Below, in pieces: positions 18,299 through 21,019 of a stretch of DNA of 64,000 nt. A model generated the notes under the pieces. The model did no database searches. It saw nothing but the letters and a program-made list of their open reading frames with translations, and was not told the origin of the DNA. Source of the stretch: Pseudomonadota bacterium (GTDB lineage: Bacteria > Pseudomonadota > Gammaproteobacteria > Burkholderiales > Thiobacillaceae). Position 1 is the stretch's first letter; each line of letters opens with the position of its first letter. The DNA is taken from the NCBI GenBank assembly GCA_021848725.1, contig JAJZTS010000004.1, positions 1-64,000 on the forward strand, given 5' to 3'. The position numbers and the translations under genes were made by a program.

Positions 18299-18327
18299 TT
18301 GAGCCCGAGAGGGGGATGCGCTAGAAT
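18299..18327 (+). promoter_or_regulatory. Sigma70-type promoter for 35-residue ORF
   Basis: TTGAGC (18299-18304) and TAGAAT (18322-18327) are separated by 17 bp, ending 30 bp upstream of the ATG of the small membrane ORF. Spacing is ideal. Confidence 0.65.
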
Positions 18328-18357
18328 CCGCCGGACTTTGCGATTTTGGAGCCTGCG

Positions 18358-18465
18358 ATGAAAGAGCTATTCAACAAGACCAACTTGCCGATGACCGTGG
18401 TGATCGCTTTGATCGCGTGGGCATGGCTGAGCCTGATCACGGTACTGATTGGCAAGCTGTTCTGA
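18358..18465 (+). CDS. 35-residue single-pass membrane microprotein
   Basis: This short ORF encodes 35 residues: a polar, positively charged start (MKELFNKTNLP), one hydrophobic helix (about residues 12-32, with two Trp) and the end GKLF. It has a Shine-Dalgarno (GGAG, about 9 nt before ATG), a well-spaced promoter 30 bp upstream and a strong terminator 23 bp downstream, so it is an independent transcription unit. I do not recognise a family. The main alternative is a chance ORF within a small-RNA gene bounded by the same promoter and terminator. Confidence 0.6.
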   Translation: MKELFNKTNLPMTVVIALIAWAWLSLITVLIGKLF

Positions 18466-18482
18466 CCTCGGCGCCACTCAAT

Positions 18483-18511
18483 AAAAAAGCCCCGCATCGC
18501 GGGGCTTTTTT
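18483..18511. terminator. Bidirectional terminator between microprotein ORF and rpoH
   Basis: The stem GCCCCGC/GCGGGGC with loop ATC is flanked by six A residues on the left and six T residues on the right. It therefore ends transcripts from both the plus-strand small ORF and the minus-strand rpoH. Confidence 0.92.
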
Positions 18512-18528
18512 ATTGTTGAGGGTGTTAA

Positions 18529-19380
18529 TCAACTAAGCAGCATGGCCTTCATTTTCTGCAAGGCCTTCGCCTCGATCTGCCGTACCCGTTCGGCCGAGAT
18601 GCCATATTGCGCGGCCAACTCATGCAAGGTTGCAGGATTCTCTTCGTTCAGCCAGCGGGCTTGGACGATATGCCGGCTGCGCTCGTCGAGCGCCTCCAAT
18701 GCTCGGGCCAGGCCGGTGGTGGCCAGTTGCTCGCGCTCCTTGCGTTCGATATCGAGGATCGGTTCTGCATCGGGTGCGGCGAGGTAGGCGATGGGGGCAA
18801 AGCTATCTTCGTCCTCATCGGTGTTGGCCTCCAGCGCAACGTCCTGGCCATAGAGCCGGGTTTCCATCTCGCGTACGTCGTGTCTACTGACGTTCAAAGT
18901 CTGAGCCATGGCTTCGACTTCGTCTGGGCTCAGGCTGCCGCCATGTTGCTTGAGGCTGCGCAGATTGAAGAACAGCTTGCGTTGGGCCTTGGTCGTGGCT
19001 ACCTTGACCAGGCGCCAGTTGCGCAGGATGTACTCGTGGATTTCCGCCTTGATCCAATGCACGGCAAAGGAGACCAGGCGCACGCCACGCTCGGGGTCGT
19101 AGCGTTTGACGGCCTTCATCAGGCCGACATTGCCTTCCTGGATCAGGTCGGCATGGGGTAGGCCATAACCCAAATAGCCGCGGGCGATGGAAACGACCAA
19201 GCGCAGGTGGGACAGCACCAACTGACGTGCGGCTTCCAAGTCCTGCGCGTCGCGGAAGCGGCGGGCGAGGCTGGTTTCCTCTTCGGCGCTGAGCAGCGGG
19301 AAGCGGTTCGCGGCCTGGATGTAGCTCTCGATGCTACCTAGGCTGGAAGGGACTGGAAAGCTTAGGGCCTGTGCGGTCAT
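18529..19380 (-). CDS. rpoH: RNA polymerase heat-shock sigma factor RpoH (sigma32)
   Basis: This 283-residue sigma70-family factor directs transcription of chaperone and protease genes. Region 2 contains DLIQEGNVGLMKAVKRYDPERGVR and FAVHWIKAEIHEYILRNWR. The RpoH box, QRKLFFNLR, spans residues 133-141 and identifies the family. Region 4 ends with GISAERVRQIEAKALQKMK. The start has the Shine-Dalgarno TTGGAGG. A CIRCE operator lies 31-57 bp upstream and overlaps the likely promoter, suggesting HrcA control. It is followed by ftsX upstream on the same strand, the usual ftsYEX-rpoH order. Confidence 0.97.
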   Translation of the reverse strand: MTAQALSFPVPSSLGSIESYIQAANRFPLLSAEEETSLARRFRDAQDLEAARQLVLSHLRLVVSIARGYLGYGLPHADLIQEGNVGLMKAVKRYDPERGVRLVSFAVHWIKAEIHEYILRNWRLVKVATTKAQRKLFFNLRSLKQHGGSLSPDEVEAMAQTLNVSRHDVREMETRLYGQDVALEANTDEDEDSFAPIAYLAAPDAEPILDIERKEREQLATTGLARALEALDERSRHIVQARWLNEENPATLHELAAQYGISAERVRQIEAKALQKMKAMLLS

Positions 19381-19407
19381 ATCAAAACCTCCAAGGGACT
19401 GAAGCGG

Positions 19408-19437
19408 ATTCTAGCACTCGGTAATGGAGAGTGCTAA
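19408..19437 (-). promoter_or_regulatory. Likely rpoH promoter embedded in CIRCE
   Basis: Read on the minus strand, TTAGCA and TAGAAT are 18 bp apart, with predicted transcription start about 20 bp before the rpoH ATG. The -35 is formed by one CIRCE arm and the -10 overlaps the other, so a bound repressor would block polymerase. Confidence 0.55.
19411..19437 (-). promoter_or_regulatory. CIRCE operator (HrcA site) upstream of rpoH
   Basis: On the minus strand the sequence reads TTAGCACTC, 9 bp, GAGTGCTAG. This matches the CIRCE consensus TTAGCACTC-N9-GAGTGCTAA in 17 of 18 arm positions with the correct spacer. CIRCE is the operator of the heat-shock repressor HrcA, best known at groE and dnaK. 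hrcA itself is not in this window. Confidence 0.92.
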
Positions 19438-19466
19438 TCCCGATAAGTTCCGTCAACTATAGAGGG

Positions 19467-20372
19467 TCAGGCAATGCGCAAGCTGCGTTGGGTATGGGCG
19501 ACGGCATAGAGGGCGCCGATCAGCCCCAAGAGGCCGGAGATTGCCGCCAACGCCATGCCGTCCAGCCAACTCAAGCCGGCCAGCGCGAATTCGCTGCCGT
19601 AAGCCGCAGCGAGTTCTGCGATGCGGCCATGCAGCAGAAAGAGCGCCAGGCTCAGCAGGCCCCAGGCGGTCAGGCCGCCGAGCAGGCCCTGTAGGCCGCC
19701 AAAATAGAGGAATGGCCGGCGGATGAAGCGGTCGGTCGCGCCGAGTAGGCGGGCGACCTCGATCTCATCGCGCTGGGCGTAGATTTGCAGGCGGATGGTG
19801 TTGCCGGTAATGGCGGCCAAAGCCAGGCCGAATAAACCGGCAAGCAGCCAGATCACGCGCTCGCCCAGCTGCATGAAGGCATTCAGCCGGCGTGCCCAAC
19901 CGCTATCGAGGTTGACTCGGTCCACCTCCGGCCGCTTACGTAAGGTCTCGGCCAGGCGGTCTAAGGCGGCCGGGTTGGAATCGCGGGTGCGGAGGATCAG
20001 CGCATGCGGTAGCGGGTTGCCGGGCAGGCCGGCGGTGATGTCGCCCAGCCCCAGTTTCTCCAGGCGTTTTAGGGCCTCGTCGCGACCGATGAAGCGGACG
20101 GAGGCAACATCCGGCTGCTGTTGCAGCACCTGGCCGATTTGCCGGGCTGTCGCCTCGGGGGTGTTGAGCTTGAAGAATACACTCAGCTCTGCGCGCGGTG
20201 CCGCATCGGCGGTCGCCTTTTTGAGGTTGTCGAGCAGCAGATACAGGCCGGCAGGCAGGGTGATGGCGGCGGCGATCACCAGCACGGAGATCAAGGCGGC
20301 GAGGGGCGCGCGGCGCAGGCGGTCGAATGCGACAGCGAAGCTGTGCGCATGGTGGGCAAACCAGGCGTTCAT
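19467..20372 (-). CDS. ftsX: Cell division protein FtsX
   Basis: This 301-residue inner-membrane protein has an N-terminal helix (about 24-46) and a periplasmic loop of about 120 residues. Three further membrane segments at the C-terminus follow the conserved IYAQRDEIEVARLLGATDRFIRRPF. FtsX with the ATPase FtsE transmits septal signals to amidase activators such as EnvC. Its start overlaps the ftsE stop by 4 bp (ATGA), so the two are translationally coupled. Confidence 0.95.
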   Translation of the reverse strand: MNAWFAHHAHSFAVAFDRLRRAPLAALISVLVIAAAITLPAGLYLLLDNLKKATADAAPRAELSVFFKLNTPEATARQIGQVLQQQPDVASVRFIGRDEALKRLEKLGLGDITAGLPGNPLPHALILRTRDSNPAALDRLAETLRKRPEVDRVNLDSGWARRLNAFMQLGERVIWLLAGLFGLALAAITGNTIRLQIYAQRDEIEVARLLGATDRFIRRPFLYFGGLQGLLGGLTAWGLLSLALFLLHGRIAELAAAYGSEFALAGLSWLDGMALAAISGLLGLIGALYAVAHTQRSLRIA

Positions 20373-21019
20373 AGCAGCTTGCCCTCCGCCAAATGGATGG
20401 CGCGGCCGCCATAACGTTGCGCCTGGCTTTGGTCATGGGTGGAAATGATCAAGGTCACGCCGACCTGGTTGAGGGCGTGAAACATCGCCATGATCTCGCC
20501 CGCATAGGTTTCGTCCAGGTTGGCCGTGGGCTCGTCGGCCAATAGCAATTGCGGTCGGCCGACGATGGCGCGGGCAATGCATAAACGCTGTTGCTCGCCG
20601 CCCGACAGGGTAATCGGGCGTGCACGTTCCTTTCCGGTCAGACCGGCCTTGTCCAGCGCGGCGCGTACGCGTTTGCCGGCTTCATGGCCGGTCAGGCCCT
20701 GGATTTGCAAGGGCAGCAGCACATTGTCGAAGACGCTACGGTCATAGAGCAATTTGTGGTCTTGGAAGACCAAGCCGAGATTGCGGCGGAAATAGGGCAG
20801 ACCCGTGCGGCGCATGCGGCCAATGTTCTGGCCGAACACGACGACACTGCCCGAGGTGGGCCGCTCGGTGGCGGCGATGAGCTTGAGCAGAGTGCTCTTG
20901 CCCGCGCCGGAGCGGCCATTGACGAATACCATCTCGCCCTTGGCGATACCGAGCGAGACATGGGACAGCGCCTCATGGCCGCCAGGATAGCGCTTGGTGA
21001 CGTCGTTCAGTTCGATCAT
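20369..21019 (-). CDS. ftsE: Cell division ATP-binding protein FtsE
   Basis: This 216-residue ABC ATPase has Walker A GRSGAGKST at 35-43, signature LSGGEQQR, Walker B LLADEPTANLD and the H-loop histidine in ISTHDQ. It pairs with FtsX at the divisome. It lies 25 bp after ftsY in the conserved ftsY-ftsE-ftsX order. Confidence 0.96.
   Translation of the reverse strand: MIELNDVTKRYPGGHEALSHVSLGIAKGEMVFVNGRSGAGKSTLLKLIAATERPTSGSVVVFGQNIGRMRRTGLPYFRRNLGLVFQDHKLLYDRSVFDNVLLPLQIQGLTGHEAGKRVRAALDKAGLTGKERARPITLSGGEQQRLCIARAIVGRPQLLLADEPTANLDETYAGEIMAMFHALNQVGVTLIISTHDQSQAQRYGGRAIHLAEGKLL

Follow-up and report, generated by a model that had tools for sequence, protein, structure and literature searches.

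A predicted HrcA operator overlaps putative housekeeping and sigma-E-type promoters upstream of rpoH in a Thiobacillaceae bacterium and its relatives

The activity of the repressor HrcA depends on the GroE chaperonin, as established in Bacillus. A CIRCE operator upstream of rpoH was reportedly predicted for betaproteobacteria by Permina and Gelfand in 2003. The same arrangement has been predicted in Geobacter sulfurreducens, with the operator at -51 (PMC545781), so the CIRCE-rpoH link itself is not new, as the first-pass annotation of the present locus had suspected. The textbook case of a sigma-E-dependent rpoH promoter is P3 of Escherichia coli (PMC8103513). The locus described here resembles the Geobacter and other proteobacterial HrcA-CIRCE regulons in its operator, its target gene, and a similar distance to the start codon, and it resembles P3 in the sigma-E -35 box GGAACTT and in a second sigma factor that would feed rpoH. 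It differs from the former in that the operator is co-constrained with a -10 element and shares sequence with a sigma-E-type promoter. E. coli lacks hrcA (our search control) and hence HrcA control, whereas here a promoter of this type interlocks with CIRCE. No description of the interlocking of CIRCE, a sigma-E promoter, and an extended -10 at rpoH, or of its breadth, was found in the open-licence literature, and the layout shared with a sigma-E promoter appears to be undescribed.

The window, that is, the whole stretch of DNA that was analyzed, comprises 64 kb. The following features were assigned at and around the gap between ftsX and rpoH.

18529 to 19380, minus strand: rpoH, heat-shock sigma factor sigma-32 (TIGR02392 equivalog model, scoring 415.7 bits where the cut-off is 323.1)
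19388 to 19394, minus strand: Shine-Dalgarno-like TTGGAGG, from reading the sequence
19408 to 19413, minus strand: sigma-70-type -10 TAGAAT, its first three bases being the operator's last three
19411 to 19437, minus strand: CIRCE operator (predicted HrcA site), TTAGCACTC-N9-GAGTGCTAG, from the motif match and its conservation at rpoH of hrcA-bearing relatives
19414 to 19416, minus strand: TGC, extended -10 element within the right operator arm
19424 to 19428, minus strand: TCCAT, degenerate candidate sigma-E -10 (TCNNA expected) that lies within the CIRCE spacer at a 16-nt distance from GGAACTT
19432 to 19437, minus strand: -35-like TTAGCA, with which the left operator arm opens, separated from the -10 by 18 nt
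19445 to 19451, minus strand: GGAACTT, a perfect sigma-E-type -35 box, conserved before CIRCE in relatives
19467 to 20372, minus strand: ftsX, the gene upstream of rpoH (stop at 19467; gene order ftsY-ftsE-ftsX-rpoH)

On the minus strand, the gap reads ...GGAACTT ATCGGGA TTAGCACTC TCCATTACC GAGTGCTAG AAT..., so that positions 19437 to 19411 are occupied by two arms separated by a 9-nt spacer. Seventeen of the 18 arm bases match the CIRCE consensus, TTAGCACTC-N9-GAGTGCTAA, leaving one mismatch. With up to three mismatches allowed, this was the sole match in the window, and none was obtained in 100 shuffles. The operator lies 31 to 57 bp 5' of the rpoH ATG at 19380. The first-pass annotation had reported the same number of matching arm bases, the same distance to rpoH, and a range of 19408 to 19437. 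Rereading of the minus strand and the TIGR02392 assignment of RpoH bear these claims out, the range being correct for the operator together with the -10. That annotation had also made its reading depend on the presence of hrcA and had proposed a survey of related genomes for CIRCE at rpoH and for hrcA. One hrcA is found in the genome (L004, 230 bits). The survey covered the rpoH upstream regions of 139 genomes of GTDB Burkholderiales (betaproteobacteria) with known hrcA status, and CIRCE was present at rpoH in 118 of 120 hrcA-positive and 0 of 19 hrcA-negative genomes. One of the two exceptions has a weak HrcA match (G085, E 1.5e-10); the other (L245 of G183) has intact CIRCE arms with a spacer of 10 nt instead of 9. 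Judged from these matches, CIRCE at rpoH is a near-universal trait of hrcA-bearing relatives and not peculiar to this genome. Because hrcA is present and CIRCE at rpoH tracks its presence, the predicted site is supported as a genuine CIRCE. As for an HrcA-controlled gene, the operator is near the promoter, hrcA is in the genome, and the operator is lost where hrcA is lost. Outside Burkholderiales, CIRCE preceded rpoH in 26 of 27 gammaproteobacterial genomes, which had been picked because CIRCE occurs somewhere in them and rpoH was matched.

The operator appears to contribute to a housekeeping promoter. The pair TTAGCA and TAGAAT, 18 nt apart, is formed by the operator as first noted, with TG one base ahead of the -10. 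It is the sole sigma-70-like site in 18300 to 20600, but 0.6 would be expected by chance, and it is not significant within the window alone. The -35-like TTAGCA is a consequence of any CIRCE and, by itself, weak evidence. The shared promoter is instead supported because of comparative evidence, drawn from 189 nonredundant rpoH loci that differ by at least 10 of 84 bases, with 27 groES operators of the same order as controls. The AT that lies past the operator and completes the extended -10, TGC-TANNAT, was found in 165 of 189 rpoH loci but in 3 of 27 groES loci (P = 1e-15); since loci share ancestry, P values overstate independence and are indicative, and the safer statement is the tally by family: of 45 families, 41 have CIRCE, 40 the extended -10, and 29 a strict sigma-E motif. 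The commonest forms of the -10 in relatives are TAAAAT, TAATAT, TAACAT, and TAGAAT. Operator position 24, the T that opens the -10, departs from the consensus in none of the 189 loci, whereas its palindromic partner, position 2, does so in 54; in 53 of these the base is G, and the resulting TTGGCA or CTGGCA is closer to TTGACA. At groES the two positions behave alike (3/27 and 2/27 mismatched). HrcA alone would not account for such asymmetric arm decay. The site thus has the TGN-TANNAT form of a sigma-70 extended -10 promoter with its informative bases conserved, and the proposed sharing of the -10 with the operator holds. A separate sigma-70 candidate using TTGACG at 19456 to 19451 was ruled out, as it has no acceptable -10 at 16 to 18 nt.

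Alignment of the operators revealed GGAACTT, the sigma-E -35 box, ahead of the left arm. This second promoter, and the extent of the arrangement through the GTDB class Gammaproteobacteria, had been missed by the first-pass annotation, which, as far as sequence evidence goes, was right about CIRCE and the shared -10. GGAACTT-N15-17-TCNNA overlaps or abuts the operator in 104 of 189 loci, with about 1 expected. The first set of 113 loci, which served to find the motif, contained it in 60 cases, compared to 0.8 in dinucleotide shuffles of flank and spacer; the second set, fetched after the model was fixed and therefore the cleaner test, contained it in 44 of 76, compared to 0.5. None of the 27 groES loci carries it. 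In relatives, GGAACTT is conserved either 5 to 10 nt or 21 to 28 nt before CIRCE. Where it ends 8 to 10 nt ahead of the operator, the TC of the -10 is the one at operator positions 7 and 8, and 68 of 76 loci have A at position 11, compared to 34 of 91 loci in which GGAACTT is absent or far upstream. Where it ends 7 nt before CIRCE, TC is found at positions 9 and 10 in all 18 loci, bringing the spacing back to 16 nt. In Paraburkholderia, Bordetella, Cupriavidus, and others, GGAACTT ends 21 to 24 nt before CIRCE, and TCNNA follows 16 nt on, just ahead of the operator. Because both boxes shift together against the fixed operator, they are well supported as a promoter in its own right in relatives. 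A strict match is lacking in 85 of the 189 loci, including some from rpoE-carrying genomes. The motif was weakly linked to rpoE presence (1/7 versus 64/107; P = 0.04, likewise indicative), which gives only weak support to rpoE absence as a predictor of a missing motif.

The layout recurs in other gammaproteobacterial families, where 17 of 27 CIRCE-rpoH loci have the strict sigma-E motif, most often with a gap of 9 and a spacing of 16 nt. The motif also occurs in 15 of 26 further gammaproteobacterial rpoH loci, nearly all of which have no CIRCE (0.4 expected), and the sequences suggest, without proof, that P3-type promoters are at least as old as the loss of the operator. Both sigma-E boxes are kept while the operator has decayed in two hrcA-less genomes (L158 of G034 and L156 of G115) and in two Nitrosospira loci with hrcA (L123 and L130). 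In Nitrosospira, where hrcA is retained, rpoH seems to have lost its HrcA control as a separate event. Pseudomonas-like loci (L375 to L377) carry GGAACTT-N16-TCAGA before rpoH, followed by AGTGCTACACT, which looks like a CIRCE fossil with surviving promoter bases. In one family (f63; L339, L369, and L384), variant palindromes of the type TTAGCAGTC-N9-GACTGCTAA precede rpoH, most clearly in L384, and these genomes have few or no standard CIRCE sites; the variants possibly reflect an HrcA of altered specificity or are relicts.

How the window's own copy should be read is less clear-cut. GGAACTT is perfect and the genome encodes one rpoE above the curated cut-off (G000:C18:74146-74718, 295 bits against 236), but the -10 is not TCNNA, and the strict rule (TCNNA at 15 to 17 nt) is failed by the window copy. 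We therefore call it sigma-E-like rather than a proven member, and regard a sigma-E promoter here as probable. The opposing reading is that CIRCE and HrcA govern just a sigma-70 promoter of rpoH and that GGAACTT is a relict or chance occurrence, with no sigma-E input in the genus. It would be in keeping with the TCCAT of the window and with the strict rule being passed by none of the five genomes of the family. The two nearest relatives or same-genus copies, though, read TCAAT at this place, and GGAACTT is perfect and in the same register in all three copies from the genus or its nearest relative (L009, L010, and L067). Given also that rpoE is present and that the two boxes are coupled in relatives, we consider the absence of sigma-E input unlikely, if still deserving of some weight.

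Another alternative is that -10 and operator overlap by accident, given that every CIRCE ends in GCTAA, and that the true promoter lies at another place, such as within ftsX or farther up in ftsYEX. TTAGCA-N18-TAA is indeed inherent in any CIRCE, and the promoter score in the window is near chance. This would leave unexplained why the A and T that complete the -10, which are no part of CIRCE, are kept at rpoH and seldom at groES, and why changes are seen at the partner of position 24 but never at position 24 itself; we regard an accident as improbable. Still less credible, and in our judgment very improbable, is that the palindrome acts as an RNA stem, for stability or as an ftsX/rpoH terminator, and not as a DNA operator. 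The inverted repeat does sit in an intergenic gap, but no T-run follows it and it was not called as a terminator, its conservation tracks the CIRCE consensus and hrcA presence beyond mere pairing, and with a start near 19401 it would not be transcribed. An RNA-level role is not supported.

From the elements seen in the sequence, and from the way they are conserved, coupled, and jointly lost, we infer that rpoH is probably under composite control, with a predicted HrcA operator, laid over the core promoter, gating a housekeeping and a sigma-E promoter together. The right operator arm would serve as the extended -10 of the housekeeping promoter, with a predicted start near 19401 and a leader of about 20 nt, and the overlapping sigma-E-type promoter (GGAACTT at 19451 to 19445, -10 in the CIRCE spacer) would bring a second input from envelope stress. 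HrcA bound to 19437 to 19411 would cover the -10 of both promoters and occlude both. Titration of GroEL by misfolded protein would then abolish HrcA activity and release rpoH and groESL together in this organism, a circuit proposed because HrcA depends on GroE and CIRCE is usually confined to groESL and rpoH. Falling chaperonin capacity would thereby lead to joint synthesis of chaperonin and sigma-32, with sigma-E as an extra route. In Cupriavidus metallidurans, rpoH has multiple mapped transcription starts (PMC7563307), which would agree with two promoters. If the composite reading is true, three inputs meet at one 45-bp site that controls rpoH, the gene of the master heat-shock sigma factor: chaperonin capacity, sensed by HrcA; envelope damage, signaled by sigma-E; and housekeeping transcription. 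This would provide a transcriptional route to sigma-32 control that is absent from E. coli, the textbook case. The site would be an example of one DNA arm held constant by two proteins, and the layout can be tested simply and generally in any culturable betaproteobacterium.

More tentatively, the three-way module, in which the HrcA operator, the sigma-70 extended -10, and the sigma-E promoter occupy the same 45 bp in fixed register, may be ancestral in beta- and gammaproteobacteria. The rpoH sigma-E promoters of hrcA-less lineages (E. coli P3 and those of the Pseudomonas-like loci) would then be what remained after loss of HrcA and its operator. We hold this to be possible, slightly short of an even case.

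Three CIRCE-like sites were found in the genome and none with the reversed-pattern control; in most genomes there are two, CIRCE being mostly limited to groESL and rpoH. The third site here, TTAGCACTG-N9-GAGTGCTAA with one mismatch (L002:1501-1527; G000:C20:7076-7102), is located behind nrdB and its terminator, close to a contig end, with the target gene outside view. A feedback loop of HrcA and sigma-32 onto hrcA was not found: in the 20 relatives scanned, no CIRCE precedes hrcA, and scores for a sigma-32 promoter there were at the level of shuffles. In the genome to which the window belongs, groES is preceded by a perfect CIRCE. The operator is the same at groESL and rpoH, and in the same genomes, but at groESL CIRCE closely follows a CCTAT(T/C)A-like -10, lies near the point where transcription starts, and has neither GGAACTT nor the conserved AT after it. 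This -10 precedes CIRCE in nearly every one of the groES loci L037 to L066, which implies that, within one genome, the repressor would act at another position relative to the promoter.
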